Part shown: positions 317-7,948 of the stretch, piece by piece
Layout: each line of letters begins with the position of its first letter
How positions within the stretch are numbered: the stretch's first letter is position 1
Assembly (NCBI GenBank): GCA_025060635.1
Contig: JANXBN010000004.1
Location: 62,001-126,000 of the forward strand
DNA length: 64,000 bases
Direction of reading: 5' to 3'
DNA from: Candidatus Kryptonium sp.
GTDB lineage: Bacteria > Bacteroidota > Ignavibacteria > Kryptoniales > Kryptoniaceae
Program-made: the position numbers and the translations under genes
Notes under the pieces: generated by a model
Told to the model about the DNA's origin: nothing
What the model saw: only the letters and a program-made list of their open reading frames with translations
Databases searched by the model: none

Positions 317-895
317 ATGCGCTATATTTTATCATCACTTTTGATTTTTGCAGTGTTAATTCTAATTTCGGGCTGTGGTGGACCAAAGGAACGCGTTGCA
401 GTTCCAGAAGCAACAGCTCCAGCTTGGGTTAATACTCCACCGACAGCGGTGGATGCGATTTATGCTGTCGGCGCAGCAAATGTTGGTGCAAATCCGGTTC
501 TTGCAAGAAACAAAGCTGCTGATGCCGCAAGACAAGAACTTGGCAGAATAATTCAAGTAAAAGTTAAAAGCTTGCTTGATAATTTCATGCAAGAGCATCA
601 GGAATTTGTAAACAATCAGGGAACTATAACATCTGAAGAATTTACGAGAAGCGTTAGCAGATCTGTAAGCCAGGCGACTTTGGCTGGATCTCAGATTGTA
701 GAGTTTTATTATGACAAGGATAATAAAATTTATTATGCTCTTGCGGTTTTGAGAAAGAATGACATCGTAAATGAAATAATGCGCACGATGAACGAAGCTC
801 AACGCCAGAAGAAAACAGCATTTGTTGAAATGAAAGCAGATGAAGCTCTTAAACTTCTTGACAAGGAACTTGAAAAGTGGGATTTGAGCAAGTGA
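317..895 (+). CDS. LPP20-family lipoprotein
   Basis: A 192-residue protein with a lipoprotein signal peptide: a hydrophobic stretch, then the lipobox I17-S18-G19-C20. The mature part is one LPP20-type domain, with PAWVNTPP near residue 35, IYAVGAA near 48, an alanine-rich helix where these proteins keep AAR/ARAEL, and a GSQIVEFYYD...YYALAVL ending near residues 130-150. LPP20 proteins, including flagellar FlgP, are outer-membrane-attached lipoproteins that form envelope structures. The C-terminal tail (EALKLLDKELEKW) is nearly repeated in the protein at 1440. A strong ribosome binding site, AAAGGAGGG, lies just before the ATG. A rho-independent terminator follows, so it ends its transcript. 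Its role here is inferred to be structural. Confidence 0.85.
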   Translation: MRYILSSLLIFAVLILISGCGGPKERVAVPEATAPAWVNTPPTAVDAIYAVGAANVGANPVLARNKAADAARQELGRIIQVKVKSLLDNFMQEHQEFVNNQGTITSEEFTRSVSRSVSQATLAGSQIVEFYYDKDNKIYYALAVLRKNDIVNEIMRTMNEAQRQKKTAFVEMKADEALKLLDKELEKWDLSK

Positions 896-1071: not shown

Positions 1072-1443
1072 ATGAATGAACTTTATCGGCTTGTTTTGAT
1101 AGGGCTTGGTTTTATCTTCGTTGGGCTTGGTATACTTGGGGCTTTTTTGCCAATTCTTCCGACGACCCCTTTCTTGCTTTTAGCTGCCGCATGTTTTGCC
1201 CGAAGCTCAAAAAAATTTTACAACTGGCTGTTAAACCATAAAATTTTTGGCTCTTATATAAGGAATTATCGTGAACAAAGAGGAATTACACTGCGAGGCA
1301 AGATATTATCTCTTTCAATTATGTGGCTCGTTATGGGATATACAGCGTTTTTCGCTGTTTCAAATATATTCGTCAGTATAATAATAATTTTGATCGGTCT
1401 CGGAGTCACAAAACATATACTTTCATTAAAAACGATAAAATGA
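1072..1443 (+). CDS. DUF454 (YbaN-like) inner-membrane protein
   Basis: A 123-residue membrane protein with the recognisable DUF454 pattern: an N-terminal hydrophobic hairpin containing GLGILGAFLPILPTTPFLLLA, then CFARSSKKFYNWLLNHKIFG, and two further membrane segments toward the C terminus. YbaN homologues are small inner-membrane proteins with no established biochemical function. The stop codon overlaps the start of the next gene by four bases (ATGA), which suggests translational coupling to the tandem LPP20 protein. The link between the two is otherwise unexplained. The family call is firm and the function unknown. Confidence 0.88.
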   Translation: MNELYRLVLIGLGFIFVGLGILGAFLPILPTTPFLLLAAACFARSSKKFYNWLLNHKIFGSYIRNYREQRGITLRGKILSLSIMWLVMGYTAFFAVSNIFVSIIIILIGLGVTKHILSLKTIK

Positions 1444-2399
1444 AAAATCTCGCTTTTACACTTTCAATTTTTTTAACATCTACACTTTTATCACAACAAC
1501 CTACTTGGCTTTCCCTTCTTCCACAATCAAAGGATTATTTATACGCTGTTGGAGCTTCCTCTCCGTATTTTTATCCTGAGACAACCAAATCCAAAGCAAT
1601 TGAAGACGCAATTCTTGAGCTCGCCCGAACAATTGAGGTTGGAGTAAAAGTAAGGCAAATTAATTGGTTTGAAGATACAGGGAGTTTATTTTCTGGGCTT
1701 TCTCACTTCGCAGAAGAGTATGAAGAGGAGATTGATTCCGGGCTTGTTAACTTGATTAAAGCAAATTATGAATTTGTTTCTCAATGGCAGGATCCAAAAT
1801 CAAGAATTTTATATGTTTTGCTTCGTGTTCCAGTTAAAGCAATTACATCTGATACAATGTATTCAATTCCTGAAGAGTTTATTTTTGATCCTGCGCTCGT
1901 GGGGTTGAGTGCTTCGTCCGCAAGGCAACCGAGATGGGTTAATAAAATCCCTGTTTCAGATGTTGCCATTTACGCTGTCGGTGCATCTGATAGATACTTT
2001 GATCCCGCTGAAACAAGAAAAAGAGCTATTCAAAATGCTCGCGCTGAGCTTTCAAGGATTATAAGTTTGAGAATTCAATCTTTGCTTGATAATTGGGCAA
2101 CAGGTAATAAGGTTTTTGAATTAAGTTATTCAAGAAGAATTTCAAGAACTGTTTCAAGCGCGAAGTTAACAGGTTCTCAAATAGTTGGTTTCTGGGTTGA
2201 TCCCAAAACAGGTGCTAATTATGCGCTTGCCCGAATGTATAGAAAAAGTTTGATTTATCAAGTAAAACAAAACACCGTTAATGCAATAAGGCAAAACCCT
2301 CCTGATAAGTTTGTAAAGCAGGATAAGCCGATAGAAGAACTTTTAAATGAGGCTTTAAATCAACTTGACAAGGAGCTTGAAAAATTAAACAAAAAATAA
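1440..2399 (+). CDS. Secreted protein with two tandem LPP20-type domains
   Basis: A 319-residue protein with a signal peptide (residues 1-19) but no lipobox cysteine. It carries two LPP20-type domains, about residues 21-135 and 164-290. Each begins with a P-x-W motif followed by YAVGAS and an alanine-rich helix. The second is much closer to the lipoprotein at 317 (SLLDNW, LTGSQIVGF, YALARM) and shares its charged tail EALNQLDKELEKL, which points to a local duplication. I chose the ATG at 1440 because it gives a signal peptide and a 4-base overlap with the upstream stop. An in-frame start at 1323 would add 39 residues that are only the shifted frame of the DUF454 gene. Probably periplasmic or outer-membrane associated. 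Confidence 0.82.
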   Translation: MKNLAFTLSIFLTSTLLSQQPTWLSLLPQSKDYLYAVGASSPYFYPETTKSKAIEDAILELARTIEVGVKVRQINWFEDTGSLFSGLSHFAEEYEEEIDSGLVNLIKANYEFVSQWQDPKSRILYVLLRVPVKAITSDTMYSIPEEFIFDPALVGLSASSARQPRWVNKIPVSDVAIYAVGASDRYFDPAETRKRAIQNARAELSRIISLRIQSLLDNWATGNKVFELSYSRRISRTVSSAKLTGSQIVGFWVDPKTGANYALARMYRKSLIYQVKQNTVNAIRQNPPDKFVKQDKPIEELLNEALNQLDKELEKLNKK

Positions 2400-2412: not shown

Positions 2413-3312
2413 ATGAAAATTTATAAGATTTTTCTCGTTTTTATTTTAATGTCTTCTCTTCTTTTCCCGCAGGACAAAAAGATAAGCGTTGCGGTTTTGA
2501 AATTTGATGCCAAGGGGTTTGAACCAGCACAAATTGATGTCCTTGTTTCAAGGTTTAGGGTTGCTTTAAACGCAACTGGTAAATTTAATGTCCTTGAAAG
2601 GGAGAAAATAAAGGAAATTTTAATGGAACAGAACTTGCAACAAAGCGAGATCGCCGAGGGGGCAGGAGACAATGTGCAAATCGGAAAAATTCTCGGGGTT
2701 AAAGAGATTATAACTGGTGATATCGGTAAAATTGAAGAAGTTTACACAATAAATGTAAGAAGAATTAATGTTGAAACATCTGAAATCGTCCAAACCGCAA
2801 GCGCTGATTACGAGGGGAAGTTCTCGGGGCTTTTAAAAGTTATGGAGCAACTTGCAATTAAGCTTGCTGAAAATCCTTCTGAAAAACATGTAGCTTTGAA
2901 AATTGAAAATGCAAAAGCTGAAAGAGGAGAAAAACAAAATATCGTTGAGGAAAGTTTAGAAGAAGATGAAGAAGATATATTTTCTGATCTTTACAAAGAA
3001 TTCAACATAGCTAAAGATCCGTTTAAGGATAGCGAACCTCCAAAAATTGAACTTTATTACCCGGCGGTCAAAAACAATGGATATTTAAGGGTTAATAACC
3101 GTGATTTTGAGTTAAGTGGAATTGTATCGGATGAAAGTGGGATAGTTGCTGTTAAGGTAAACGGCGAACCAGCTGATATCAAAGTTGCTCTCGCTGGCAT
3201 GAATTTTTACAAGAAGCTCAAACTTAAGCGGGGAAGAAATACGATTGAAATTAGCGCAACCGATCTTTATCATAATGTTGGTAAATTAACATTTACAGTG
3301 GAGGTAAGGTAA
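2413..3312 (+). CDS. CsgG-like envelope protein with C-terminal Ig-like domain
   Basis: A 299-residue secreted protein with a signal peptide of about 20 residues. Residues 22-155 match the CsgG/LpoB-type anticodon-binding-like fold: KISVAVLKFDAKG, then FNVLEREKIKEILMEQ, then GKILGVKEIITGDIGK. A charged acidic linker (about 165-200) leads to an Ig-like domain (about 208-299) of the kind seen in surface proteins (PPKIELYYP, GIVSDESGI, GRNTIEISATD). CsgG relatives form outer-membrane channels or act as envelope assembly factors. There is no lipobox here, so a channel role cannot be assumed. It sits 13 bases after the tandem LPP20 gene and 2 bases before the next, clearly in one operon. Confidence 0.82.
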   Translation: MKIYKIFLVFILMSSLLFPQDKKISVAVLKFDAKGFEPAQIDVLVSRFRVALNATGKFNVLEREKIKEILMEQNLQQSEIAEGAGDNVQIGKILGVKEIITGDIGKIEEVYTINVRRINVETSEIVQTASADYEGKFSGLLKVMEQLAIKLAENPSEKHVALKIENAKAERGEKQNIVEESLEEDEEDIFSDLYKEFNIAKDPFKDSEPPKIELYYPAVKNNGYLRVNNRDFELSGIVSDESGIVAVKVNGEPADIKVALAGMNFYKKLKLKRGRNTIEISATDLYHNVGKLTFTVEVR

Positions 3313-3314
3313 AA

Positions 3315-5282
3315 ATGAAAAATATAATTTTAATTCTTCTTTCGTTTGTTTTTTCAAGTTTCGTTTTCGCAAGCGAGAAACCAGCATGGATAACAACAAA
3401 AAAACATCCGAGGTATCCAGAACGACTTTATATTCTGGGGGTTGGTGCAGCGAAGAAGACGAAGAATAAACTTGAAGATATTCAAAAAGCAAATAACGAG
3501 GCATTTGCCGATATTGTCAAACAGATCAGGGTCACTGTCGCCTCAAAATCGGTCGTTGAGCAAATGGAAGTAATAGCAGGTAAAAAAGTTGAATCCATTG
3601 AACGCGCATCTGCTGAACTTCAAGTTACAAGTGAACTAAAAATCGGTGGGCTAAAGATCGTTGAGACATATTTTGATGACGATGACGATATTTATTATTC
3701 GCTCGCTGTCCTTGATAGAGAGACAGCTGGGAAAGAGCTCAAAGATATGCTTAATCAGTTTCACAATGGATATTCTAAAAATTTTGAACTCGCAAGAAAC
3801 AATATTATTAGAGGAAACATTTATCAGGCGTTGTTAAATTTGGCTGAATCTTACAAAAACATCCCACCATACAATGATATACTCCCGCTTTATAGATTTA
3901 TCACGAGACCACTTGCTGAATCCGATCTTGGAAACGAATGGAAAGTTGCGGACGCACTTTTGACGGCCGAAATTAAATCCATTGCTCAAGATTTATTTTC
4001 AAAATTGAAGATTGAAAAACTTTCGGGTGAAGAACAAGAAGTTGTTTTCAATCAAGTTTTAAAACCGCTTTTTATCAAAGTCGTTTACATTGATGATGGA
4101 AAGAGCTATCCTGTCTCTGGGATTAAATTTAAATTTGCGTTTCAAACTGGGATTGGCAAACTCTCCGATAGAGGTACAAGCGATAATTCTGGAACAGTTA
4201 AATGTGATATATTTGAGTTAAAACCGCATCGTGAAAATTATTATGTAGTGTCCGCAAAACTTGATCTTTCTGAATTTTACATCTCTGGTCGCTACGATGA
4301 ATACGCTGAATGGAATGATCTTTTGCGAAGAAATGAAAAGGAGATAATTTTTACCTTGAGAAGAACAGCGATCACACTTGATGACAAAATTCGTGATCTT
4401 GTTTTAAATCTTGTTTCAAAGATTCCGTTGGAGCTTGAAACCGTTTCGGTTTTGCGAATTTACTATCAGGACAAATTGCCTGGCCCTATGGCTTTGTATT
4501 TAAAACAGAAAATTGAGTCAGCAATTGAACAGCACACAAAATTTTCTCTGATAAGCGATGAGCAAATAAAAATGGTCAATGTGAAGTATTCTAATCTTGG
4601 ATATTCATCGGATGAGCTCGGGACGCCAGAAAGCTTCGGTAAGTATGCAGGAAGTAAAGTCGTGATAACCGGTAACTATTGGGAAAGTGGTGATGGGATT
4701 GATTTAAATTTGAAAGCAACAGATGTTTTAAGAAAAATTGTATTGTCAACCGCAAATGTCAATATCCCAAGGTCTTTTCTTCCAAACATTCCACTCGTGC
4801 CTGAAAACTACAATCCGAAGGTTGACGACGAGATTATAAAATCTGAAAGAAAAGGCGAGGATTTAAAAGTTGAAGTTTGGGTTGACAGACCAGATGGAAT
4901 TTATTATGAAGGCGACTCAATTAGAATTTTCGTTAGAGCGAATAAAGATTGCTATATCCAACTTGTATATTACGATGCGCACGGCAATGCAATACTTGTC
5001 TTCCCACATAAAATGGAATGGAATAATAAAATTGAAGGTGGAAAAATTTATAGGGTTCCCGGAAACTTTGTTATTGAACCACCATTTGGGCGGGAGATAC
5101 TGAAGGTTTTTGCAAGTGAGAAACCTTTCCCTTTGCCAACGGGGCGGGAGTACTCTGGTTTAATTTTAATTGAAAATCCCAATTTGTACGCATCTAAAGT
5201 TCGCGGAATTGGATTGAAAACTCAGGATTATTCCGGTGGTTATGCTGAGCATAGCGTTGTAATCACAACTTTAAAGAAATAA
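3315..5282 (+). CDS. LPP20-type / DUF4384 multidomain envelope protein
   Basis: A 655-residue secreted protein with a signal peptide cleaved near residue 20. Residues 22-140 are an LPP20-type domain (KPAWITTKK, LYILGVGAA, IYYSLAVLDRET). The middle (about 160-350) is unassigned. Residues 375-490 look like a CsgG/FlgO-type domain (LRIYYQDKLPG, KVVITGNYWESG). Residues 517-605 match DUF4384 (EVWVDRPDGIYYEGDSIRI, CYIQLVYYDAHGNAILVFP). DUF4384 is often found fused to or next to caspase-like proteases, and the next gene is one. It follows the CsgG-like gene by two bases. Probably periplasmic or at the outer membrane, with a scaffold role inferred from domain content. Confidence 0.78.
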   Translation: MKNIILILLSFVFSSFVFASEKPAWITTKKHPRYPERLYILGVGAAKKTKNKLEDIQKANNEAFADIVKQIRVTVASKSVVEQMEVIAGKKVESIERASAELQVTSELKIGGLKIVETYFDDDDDIYYSLAVLDRETAGKELKDMLNQFHNGYSKNFELARNNIIRGNIYQALLNLAESYKNIPPYNDILPLYRFITRPLAESDLGNEWKVADALLTAEIKSIAQDLFSKLKIEKLSGEEQEVVFNQVLKPLFIKVVYIDDGKSYPVSGIKFKFAFQTGIGKLSDRGTSDNSGTVKCDIFELKPHRENYYVVSAKLDLSEFYISGRYDEYAEWNDLLRRNEKEIIFTLRRTAITLDDKIRDLVLNLVSKIPLELETVSVLRIYYQDKLPGPMALYLKQKIESAIEQHTKFSLISDEQIKMVNVKYSNLGYSSDELGTPESFGKYAGSKVVITGNYWESGDGIDLNLKATDVLRKIVLSTANVNIPRSFLPNIPLVPENYNPKVDDEIIKSERKGEDLKVEVWVDRPDGIYYEGDSIRIFVRANKDCYIQLVYYDAHGNAILVFPHKMEWNNKIEGGKIYRVPGNFVIEPPFGREILKVFASEKPFPLPTGREYSGLILIENPNLYASKVRGIGLKTQDYSGGYAEHSVVITTLKK

Positions 5283-5302
5283 AAAATTTGGAGGAGATAT
5301 CT

Positions 5303-6802
5303 ATGAAATCCAAAATTTTTACTTTAACCTTCATTACGCTCATTTTCCTCACATTTTCTTTTTCACAACAATCAGGTTATAGAAAAAGTTGGGCTTTGAT
5401 AATTGGAATCAATGAATATCAAAGTTTGCCACCATTAACTGGAGCCGTCAAAAGTGCTAAGATGATTCGCGAAAAATTAGTAAGAGAATTTGGCTTTGAA
5501 GCTGAAAATGTAATTGAACTTTACGATGATCACGCAACGAGGGAAAATATACTGAAAGCGTTTGATAGATTGATGGACCCAAAAAGAATTGGAAAAGATG
5601 ATAGAGTTCTGATTTATTTTGCTGGGCATGGGGTTACGAGAACAGTTGGCGGTAAGGATAAAGGTTATATCATGCCAGTTGATGGTGTGATGGAAAAATT
5701 TGCAAGCACAGCTATTTCAACGGATCAGCTTCATGAATTTCAAGAAGCAATACCTGCAAAGCATGTTTTCTTTGCAATGGATGCTTGTTATAGTGGGACG
5801 ATTTTTACGCGTGGCATAGGATTAAGGGAAAGTATTCCTACCTCAAGATCAGAAGCTATTGCACAGTTTACATCTAAAAGCGCAAGGGTTGCGATAACTG
5901 CCGGAGGGAAAGATGAACAGGTTGTTGATTTAGCTGATCAAGGAATAAGTGTTTTTGCTTTTTATTTTTTGCGTGGTCTTGATGGAGAATCTGATCTTAA
6001 TCGTGATGAGGTTATAACTTCAAGCGAGCTTGCTGATTATATTGCTAAAAATGTCAGATTTAGGGCACCTCAAAATCCACAATATGGGAAATTGCCTGGC
6101 GACGATGGCGGTGAATTTATATTTGTTCGCTCAGCATTTGTATCCGTAGAGCAAAAGGAACAAGAGAAACAACCTGATGTTGTCGCGCGACCACTCCAAC
6201 CGCAGGGTGAAAGAAAACCTCAGGGAAGAGTTGTTGAGAGAAGGTTGGAAAAAGAAAAACAAAAAATATATTGGCTCTACGCTTTCGCTGGTAGGAATAT
6301 GAACTTTTATTCCATACAGGAAGAAAATGTGGTATATGAAAGCACAAGTGGGGATGGTAATCTTGTTGGAATTGGATTTGAAAGTATATTTGAGCCCTGG
6401 CTTATCCTTTCTGTAAATGCATTTTACGATCAAAAGGATGGAAACCTTAAAATTAGGGGTGGCGACATATGGAATGAAGTTAGGCTTTCATATACAGTTA
6501 CAAATTTGGTGATAAAATTGACTTCGTATAATTTTTACTCATTTTTCGGCTTAAGCCTGGGGATTAGCACCGAAATCAAGCAGACAATTAAAAGTGGAAG
6601 AGCTGTTTTAAGAGAATCTAAGATTGAAACTCCAGAATTAAGGTTAAGCGTACCGTTCGGAATTGGATATGATTTGAAGATAGGTGATTTTAAATTTTTC
6701 GCAGAGATAGGATATGATTATGGTTTAACAAATGTTGCGAAAGATGTAAAATGGCGTGTCTCATCTATGCAAATTATGTTTGGCACGAGATTGGGATTAT
6801 AA
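5303..6802 (+). CDS. Caspase-fold (C14) protease fused to a predicted beta-barrel
   Basis: A 499-residue protein with a signal peptide (about residues 1-22). Residues 28-275 are a caspase/metacaspase domain: WALIIGINEY, catalytic H109 in IYFAGHG and catalytic C162 in DACYSG. An EF-hand-like loop (DLNRDEVITSSE) lies near residues 231-242, which is seen in calcium-responsive relatives. A charged, proline-rich linker (about 285-320) joins a C-terminal part (321-499) of alternating aromatic and glycine-containing beta strands that looks like a small outer-membrane barrel. I chose the ATG at 5303 because GGAGGA lies directly before it. A TTG at 5288 is part of that ribosome binding site. Last gene of the module, followed by a terminator. 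The protease call is firm; the barrel is inferred. Confidence 0.85.
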   Translation: MKSKIFTLTFITLIFLTFSFSQQSGYRKSWALIIGINEYQSLPPLTGAVKSAKMIREKLVREFGFEAENVIELYDDHATRENILKAFDRLMDPKRIGKDDRVLIYFAGHGVTRTVGGKDKGYIMPVDGVMEKFASTAISTDQLHEFQEAIPAKHVFFAMDACYSGTIFTRGIGLRESIPTSRSEAIAQFTSKSARVAITAGGKDEQVVDLADQGISVFAFYFLRGLDGESDLNRDEVITSSELADYIAKNVRFRAPQNPQYGKLPGDDGGEFIFVRSAFVSVEQKEQEKQPDVVARPLQPQGERKPQGRVVERRLEKEKQKIYWLYAFAGRNMNFYSIQEENVVYESTSGDGNLVGIGFESIFEPWLILSVNAFYDQKDGNLKIRGGDIWNEVRLSYTVTNLVIKLTSYNFYSFFGLSLGISTEIKQTIKSGRAVLRESKIETPELRLSVPFGIGYDLKIGDFKFFAEIGYDYGLTNVAKDVKWRVSSMQIMFGTRLGL

Positions 6803-6808
6803 ATTAAA

Positions 6809-6830
6809 AGGGGCGGAAATAACCGCCCCT
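6809..6830. terminator. Bidirectional terminator between convergent genes
   Basis: An 8-base-pair G/C-rich stem (6809-6816 with 6823-6830) with a 6-base loop. T-rich sequence follows on the plus strand, and TTTTAATTT follows on the minus strand. It sits in the 30 bases between the caspase gene and the convergent gene ending at 6833, so it can stop both transcripts. Confidence 0.85.
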
Positions 6831-6832
6831 CT

Positions 6833-7948
6833 TTATTTTGTAAATATCATTTTCTTTGAATCTACGAATTCGTTGGTTATCATCCTGTAAATATATGTTC
6901 CTGAACTTACTCTTGCTCCATTTTTATCTGTTCCATCCCAAACTATGAAATGCTCGCCTGCGGGTAGCTTTTCATCAATTAAAATTTTAACTATCCTTCC
7001 AGTTATATCAAATACGGCAATCTGAACTTTTGTTTCCTTGGGGATTATAAATTTAATTGTTGTGGCTGGGTTGAATGGGTTTGGATAATTTTGTTCAAGT
7101 TTAAAGTTTATAGGATAAATATCGGTTGTGATGAGTTTAAAATTGGGGATCATTATTGTTCCGTTTGAGCTTAGGATTTCAATCTTCAAAATTTCAATAT
7201 CATCTGTGCTGTTAAATTTACCCGTTATGAAAAATATGTCACCTTCACCTGGATCAAGACCATTTGAATCTTTTGCGGACAAATTGATATAAACAAAATC
7301 GTTTTTTATCTCGTAATTCATTTTCATAAATCCGGCGCTTCTTGGCATAAGTGAAGCAAATTCAGCAACTGAACCATTTTTGAGCTTAAACTCAACTGAA
7401 AGTTTTTTTACTCGCTCGCTATTTTTTAACCAGACGATAATTGATGAATAACTAATGTTAAATTTTATCCCTGCATCCTTATTTTTCCCATCTTCAAGTT
7501 TAAATGTTAATCCAAGCGCTGTTGCATTTAGCTTCCGAGCTTTCGGGGCTATCATAAGCAGGTTTTCAAAATTTATACTTACGCTGTCATTCTGATTGTA
7601 GTTTAAAGTTTTAAATTTTATCTTCGCAATTGTCGTTTTTCCGGGTTTGAATTCATGTCCTGCGCTTGCAAAGAAGATAAAGTTAGTTGTAACGCTATCG
7701 GGAGAGTAATATTTAAATAAAAGGTCGTTTCTTGAAACAATGATCGTATCAAGTTTGATAATCGCCTTACTTAATTTTAAAGTTGCCTGTATTCCTGCAA
7801 CTGTATCGGCGTTTGAGAGGACAAGATTTATTTCTATGTTTTGTGAGCTTGATATATCATTTTTTTCTAAATACAGTAAATTTTGAGCATTTATCAGGGA
7901 AACGGCAATTGCTATCATAACGATTATGTTGAAAATTCTTTTAAGCAT
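6833..7948 (-). CDS. Secreted cohesin-like protein with T9SS sorting domain
   Basis: A 371-residue protein with a signal peptide (about 1-21, ending INAQ). Residues 25-150 resemble a cohesin-type beta-sandwich (VAGIQATLKLSKAIIKLD, FFASAGHEFKPGKTTIAKIKF), followed by a second beta-rich part. The last 90 residues are a type A T9SS sorting domain: LEQNYPNPFNPATTIKF, then VFDITGRIVKIL, GEHFIVWDGTDKNG and GTYIYRM. It should be exported by Sec, then secreted and anchored by T9SS. The cohesin-like assignment is tentative and the sorting domain is clear. It stands alone, convergent with the caspase operon and divergent from rsgA. Confidence 0.8.
   Translation of the reverse strand: MLKRIFNIIVMIAIAVSLINAQNLLYLEKNDISSSQNIEINLVLSNADTVAGIQATLKLSKAIIKLDTIIVSRNDLLFKYYSPDSVTTNFIFFASAGHEFKPGKTTIAKIKFKTLNYNQNDSVSINFENLLMIAPKARKLNATALGLTFKLEDGKNKDAGIKFNISYSSIIVWLKNSERVKKLSVEFKLKNGSVAEFASLMPRSAGFMKMNYEIKNDFVYINLSAKDSNGLDPGEGDIFFITGKFNSTDDIEILKIEILSSNGTIMIPNFKLITTDIYPINFKLEQNYPNPFNPATTIKFIIPKETKVQIAVFDITGRIVKILIDEKLPAGEHFIVWDGTDKNGARVSSGTYIYRMITNEFVDSKKMIFTK

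Follow-up and report, generated by a model that had tools for sequence, protein, structure and literature searches.

Bacterial caspase homologues are usually treated as intracellular proteins of cell death, signalling or defence. Proteases of caspase-like fold occur at the outer membrane of Bacteroidota in the form of the gingipains and PorU, which belong to a different peptidase family (C25, clan CD) and are secreted or held via the type IX system; the gingipains, together with clostripain, are secreted clan CD peptidases. The barrels of autotransporters have 12 strands, in a layout that exports the passenger, and in the omptins the barrel itself, with 10 strands, is the surface-facing enzyme. 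OmpA carries a C-terminal peptidoglycan-binding domain. Gingipain is treated as a secreted clan CD peptidase in the available part of one account (PMC4357240), and the available part of an earlier survey records 46 single-domain caspase homologues behind one N-terminal helix, maybe a signal peptide (PMC3501461), which qualifies the suggestion of an earlier note on the present DNA that exported bacterial caspases are unusual.

The locus described here lies in a window of 64,000 nucleotides (the whole stretch that was analysed) from the genome of a heat-loving Candidatus Kryptonium, and joins a caspase domain of family C14 to a predicted outer-membrane barrel. The gene occupies 5303..6802 on the + strand, an open reading frame of 499 amino acids with no internal stop, and a Shine-Dalgarno-like GGAGGAG found by eye at 5290..5296 (+), 6 bases upstream, supports the ATG at 5303 as its start. 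Residues 1-21 (5303..5365, +) begin with MKSKIFTLTFITLIFLTFSFSQQ, which by eye resembles a signal peptide, as the earlier note had held; AlphaFold2 places a helix at residues 2-21 and all five genus orthologs aligned start in a similar way. The model of the full protein has a mean pLDDT of 82.1 and eight long strands within residues 323-498. The nearest proteins in named records, from Candidatus Kryptonia bacterium and Candidatus Kryptonium thompsonii, match over residues 1-499, with 57% identity in the best segment. Two other routes of localisation were considered and rejected, namely a lipoprotein anchor, the protein having no Cys lipobox in its sequence, and export as type IX cargo, there being no match to a type IX sorting tail among Pfam families up to E 1 or NCBIfam families up to E 0.01. 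The convergent neighbour at 6833-7948 (-) does carry a type A sorting tail of the type IX system (TIGR04183, 40 bits vs a cut-off of 23).

The caspase domain covers residues 26-278 (5378..6136, +). Pfam Peptidase_C14 matches residues 29-226 at E 2.3e-17 with 63.9 bits against a cut-off of 21.4, which places the domain in family C14; the score of 74.6 bits for NF047832 (caspase, EACC1-associated type) lies below the NCBIfam cut-off of 140 and does not assign it to that type. Compared with solved structures, the predicted model has the caspase fold and aligns best with plant metacaspase 4 (6w8r, Z 23.7, rmsd 2.5 over 218 residues), followed by MALT1 (Z 22.6) and metacaspase 9 (Z 22.4), and a sequence search of solved structures returned metacaspases only (best 1.3e-7). 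His109 (codon 5627..5629, +) stands in a GHG motif and Cys162 (codon 5786..5788, +) in a DAC motif, so that both the fold and the intact H109/C162 dyad reported in the earlier note are confirmed. The wider caspase alignment holds 142 distinct open reading frames in 147 aligned rows, from loci picked non-randomly, either because they resemble the window protein or because their open reading frames are long; of its 135 rows that have letters at the two catalytic sites, 132 carry both His and Cys, and the genus rows are intact.

The substrate pocket departs from the usual pattern. In TbMCA2 the S1 pocket is probably formed by Cys92, Asp95, Ser156 and Asp211, according to the available part of one study (PMC4357240), and the two S1 aspartates are described as highly conserved in prokaryotic pseudo-orthocaspases (PMC6426788, likewise available in part). 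Transferred through an alignment to a solved yeast metacaspase, these four residues correspond to A48, S51, A107 and D160 of the window protein, so that only Asp160 is kept and Ala, Ser and Ala stand in place of Cys, Asp and Ser. Position 51 (codon 5453..5455, +), which aligns with Asp95, is Asp in 131 of 143 caspase rows and Ser in nine; Ser51 is common to all six genus orthologs and to three PEGA/DUF5683 caspases of another family (L017, L018 and L024). By this alignment the protein thus lacks the two-Asp S1 pocket of metacaspases and orthocaspases that cleave after a basic P1 residue, and because the first Asp is replaced by Ser51 the Arg/Lys specificity implied in the earlier note is unsure, even with Asp160 retained.

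The EF-hand-like loop at residues 231-242 (5993..6028, +) reads D231-L-N233-R-D235-E236-V-I-T-S-S-E242. The earlier note called it intact; at position 6 the usual Gly, kept in four of the five genus orthologs aligned, is Glu in the window copy. The 12-residue pattern is all that is present, as a Pfam search to E 1 gave no EF-hand family for the window protein. In the calcium site of TbMCA2, formed by four Asp, the neighbouring Asp pair corresponds to Thr140 and a retained Asp141, and the other two positions align without certainty. The same loop occurs in 57 of the 87 caspase rows with letters there, mostly in proteins without a barrel; as judged from these rows, it is a general trait of such caspases and not of the barrel protein, and it does not speak for the extracellular sensing that the earlier note read from it.

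The C-terminal residues 322-499 (6266..6799, +) are predicted to form an 8-stranded barrel of the transmembrane type. Modelled alone (181 residues), this part gives a pLDDT of 91.6, a pTM of 0.83 and eight long antiparallel strands, the same eight that appear in the full-length AlphaFold2 model. The best Foldseek rows are OmpA (E 8.2e-7, TM-score 0.59), and structural alignment with VIA-align 2 gives Z 18.7 for OmpA, 17.6 for NspA and 17.0 for OmpW. The window copy itself stays below the cut-off of 27 bits for Pfam OMP_b-brl_2 (17.5 bits, E 0.0047), but three complete genus orthologs exceed it (L004, L005 and L006 with 43.4, 38.9 and 39.7 bits), and barrel-only open reading frames of other genomes match the same family (L036 at E 1.2e-10, L037 at 2.0e-7, L038 at 7.4e-7). 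These models and matches support the assignment of the C-terminal part as an outer-membrane barrel, which would be inserted in the membrane. The barrel-like part noticed earlier is therefore upheld: prediction yields an OmpA-like barrel and not a soluble beta-sandwich, and none of the orthologs that are sufficiently complete lacks this part.

Barrels of the OmpA type have their short turns and both barrel ends facing the periplasm. In the model, the turns at 365-366, 409-410 and 461-462 have two residues each, and the loops at 341-344, 385-388, 432-445 and 475-481 lie on the opposite face. Across the ten barrels of alignment A2, turns T1-T3 have 2-4 residues and loops 1-4 have 1-10, 4-17, 14-28 and 7, respectively. 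The N- and C-terminal ends of the modelled barrel are on the side of the short turns and, given the topology of OmpA-type barrels, the caspase should therefore be periplasmic and not on the surface. Most likely, then, it is tethered beneath the outer membrane. The earlier note had left the choice between surface and periplasm; export stands, and by analogy with OmpA the location narrows to the periplasm.

Between the two domains, residues 279-321 (6137..6265, +) form a Lys/Arg-rich linker that is predicted to be disordered (pLDDT below 50 at 279-319) and is basic (pI 9.4 over 279-320). A motif QP[K/R]R[V/I][V/I]R[E/D] is common to three of five genus linkers, and the window copy has the similar PQGRVVER; it may be a cleavage site, five sequences being too few to call it one. 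Identity to four orthologs is 83-86% in the caspase and 41-44% in the barrel, where L007 is only partly covered. The gene is found in six of the seven genomes of the family, all of one genus, and is missing from one that is 78% complete. Four of the six genus rows have the whole barrel, L007 shows its two ends around a run of N, and L008 ends with its contig. A barrel is not common to all caspases of the genus: the paralogs L001, L081, L082, L083, L084 and L088 lack a barrel match and have PEGA repeats, in some cases together with DUF5683. L001, the second caspase of the same genome (G000:C5:158759-159448), has four PEGA repeats and, by eye, a hydrophobic C-terminal hairpin, and PEGA-type paralogs like it occur in several genomes of the genus. 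A further open reading frame of the genus (L079, G038:C10) encodes 1387 amino acids with a C-terminal caspase.

The caspase-barrel gene is the last of a run on the + strand, assigned by Pfam and synteny, that comprises genes for an LPP20 lipoprotein (317..895), a DUF454 membrane protein (1072..1443), a protein with two LPP20 stretches (1440..2399), a CsgG/LpoB-like protein with a C-terminal Glucodextran_B-like part (2413..3312) and an LPP20 plus DUF4384 protein (3315..5282). From DUF454 to the caspase gene the spacing is tight, with a 4-base overlap followed by gaps of 13, 2 and 20 bases. A terminator-like hairpin (6809..6830, +; eight pairs, seven of them G-C) lies directly 3' of the caspase-barrel gene, and another (913-939; ten pairs, seven G-C, with a T-rich tail) separates the first LPP20 gene from DUF454, so that the run may be two transcription units. 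The promoter scan was uninformative (27 found vs 25.4 expected). Gene order is identical in L065, L066 and L068, and L067 and L069 agree with it up to the ends of their contigs; a further LPP20 protein is encoded just left of the window (G000:C4:60992-61315).

The association of DUF4384 with caspases extends across the 197 genomes of the class. Of the 60 places where DUF4384 scores over its cut-off, 42 have a caspase no more than 5 kb away (34 if only caspases listed by Pfam are counted) and 18 have none at that distance; counted in reverse, DUF4384 is near 45 of 131 caspase places. A rough estimate that assumes about one caspase per several-megabase genome puts the chance expectation for such proximity well under one. 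The two domains also occur in one open reading frame at L072:3561-4922 and L073:9433-10950, each with a second caspase gene nearby, and DUF4384 within bacterial caspase homologues is already described in the available parts of two papers (PMC6426788 and PMC7475262). For LPP20, at least 26 of 70 places have a caspase no more than 10 kb away, and 16 of these are this genus's own gene run.

A second group of caspase-barrel proteins exists outside the family. L014, from another family of the class, has a caspase between an N-terminal region and a barrel that scores 28.2 bits for OMP_b-brl_2 against the cut-off of 27, and its relatives L175 and L176 also have the barrel (27.9 and 29.5 bits). When the A2 barrel model was run on the C-terminal tails of caspase open reading frames only the window protein, its orthologs and L014 matched, matches that exist by construction as A2 contains most of these sequences; L175 and L176, which are outside A2, match the model at 4e-31 and 1e-32. 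A scan of the genome contigs gave two loci, whose contigs appear to be those of L006 and L005. Among the 25 Pfam families listed, of 65 matched by 45 further caspase tails, there was no outer-membrane barrel; judged by eye, L013 and L182 have tails that resemble a barrel, yet these have no Pfam match. In a tree of 46 caspase domains, the six genus rows (support 100/100) and the three rows of the second group (100/99) form separate clades, and forcing all nine into one clade costs 142.7 log-likelihood units (p-AU 4.15e-104; the AU test presumes a group named before the tree was seen, as was the case here), with at least two changes required. L178, a relative in the second group, has a fascin-like beta-trefoil tail in place of the barrel according to Pfam, and L179-L181 are alike by eye. 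The fusion would thus have arisen twice, or once with frequent loss, gain and loss looking the same on this tree. The operon proteins are known only for the genus clade.

How the two domains work together can be read in several ways. One is that the C-terminal part does not form a membrane barrel, being either a soluble barrel in the periplasm or a product of the modelling; this would fit the score of the window copy below the Pfam cut-off, the rows for the barrel of soluble PsbO at Z of about 10-11, and a moderate alternation of hydrophobicity between strand faces (1.84 vs 1.19, sd 0.32, in shuffled sequences, a value reached in 54 of 2000 shuffles). The Z of 17-19 for OmpA, NspA and OmpW is, however, well above that of PsbO, and the orthologs pass the cut-off of an outer-membrane family. 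Outer-membrane barrels often end in F or L, as do seven of the ten barrel rows of A2, and a soluble barrel or artefact is highly improbable. If the barrel is real, it could instead export or display the N-terminal domain in the fashion of an autotransporter, leaving the caspase exposed on the surface, one of the locations proposed in the earlier note. The order of passenger, linker and C-terminal barrel is that of autotransporters, whose barrels appear among the lower Foldseek rows (e.g., EspP, E 5.8e-5), but the model has eight strands instead of 12, its closest folds are OmpA, NspA and OmpW (TM-score 0.59 for OmpA vs 0.28 for EspP) and both barrel ends lie on the side of the short turns, all of which makes surface display quite unlikely.

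Two further alternatives concern the caspase itself. The replacement of three of the four metacaspase pocket residues (A48, S51 and A107), with S51 in all six genus rows, would fit a pseudo-protease that cleaves little or nothing and uses its caspase fold at the outer membrane for binding or as a scaffold. Against this, the His-Cys dyad is intact in the genus and throughout nearly all caspase rows, Asp160 is retained and the caspase is the best conserved part of the protein, so that loss of activity appears unlikely. An active caspase might, on the other hand, be an effector of suicide or defence that destroys envelope proteins and kills the cell upon phage attack or damage, since reviews, in the parts available, often tie bacterial caspases to cell death, and the domain matches the PADLOC 'caspase' model at E 1.4e-22. 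That model recognises the caspase domain only; three other operon proteins, when scanned, gave no good defence match (best E 0.0035), and the presence of the gene in six of seven family genomes, in the same order where contigs reach, is unlike that of a mobile defence gene. Such a role is distinctly improbable.

The most probable reading, which we hold with some confidence, is of an outer-membrane-anchored, periplasm-facing caspase homologue that acts as a regulated protease with its operon partners in an envelope response. The protein would be exported by Sec and its C-terminal OmpA-like barrel of eight strands inserted into the outer membrane, with the flexible linker of about 40 residues keeping the N-terminal caspase just inside. 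The tethered domain would be a regulated cysteine protease whose partners lie in the periplasm or outer membrane, and it would work alongside the co-encoded exported LPP20, CsgG/LpoB-like and DUF4384 proteins. Speculatively, the Lys/Arg-rich linker might be a site of self-cleavage that frees the protease. It is tempting, if rather doubtful, to extend this to a transmembrane sentinel of the envelope, in which barrel loops or assembly state would sense outer-membrane damage or signals and switch on the periplasmic caspase, which would release itself at the basic linker and process envelope proteins with LPP20, CsgG and DUF4384, a caspase-based parallel to regulated envelope proteolysis with two or more evolutionary origins. 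Were the anchored protease real, caspase-type proteolysis would enter envelope biology, in two lineages and a conserved gene run, and the uncharacterised DUF4384 and LPP20 proteins, often encoded nearby, would gain a testable protease partner.

The component parts of the protein are known, but no description of a C14 caspase joined to an outer-membrane barrel was found in searches of the open-licence PMC literature. With the orthocaspases and bacterial metacaspases of Peptidase_C14 the window protein shares the caspase fold, the His-Cys dyad and the GHG and DAC motifs, but it differs in having Ser51 at the usual S1 Asp and in its fusion to a barrel, which the available parts of PMC3501461, PMC6426788 and PMC7475262 do not describe. 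It resembles gingipain in presenting a caspase-like fold at the outer membrane (PMC4357240, available in part), but unlike gingipains and PorU has no match to a type IX tail. To the OMP_b-brl_2 and OmpA-type barrels it is linked by its eight strands, the alignment to OmpA and the Pfam match of its orthologs, and is set apart by the N-terminal protease. The order of passenger, linker and barrel is shared with the type Va autotransporter proteases, from which it differs in strand number, in having OmpA as the closest barrel and in the fold of its passenger. With the OmpT-type omptins, finally, it has in common a protease anchored in the outer membrane.
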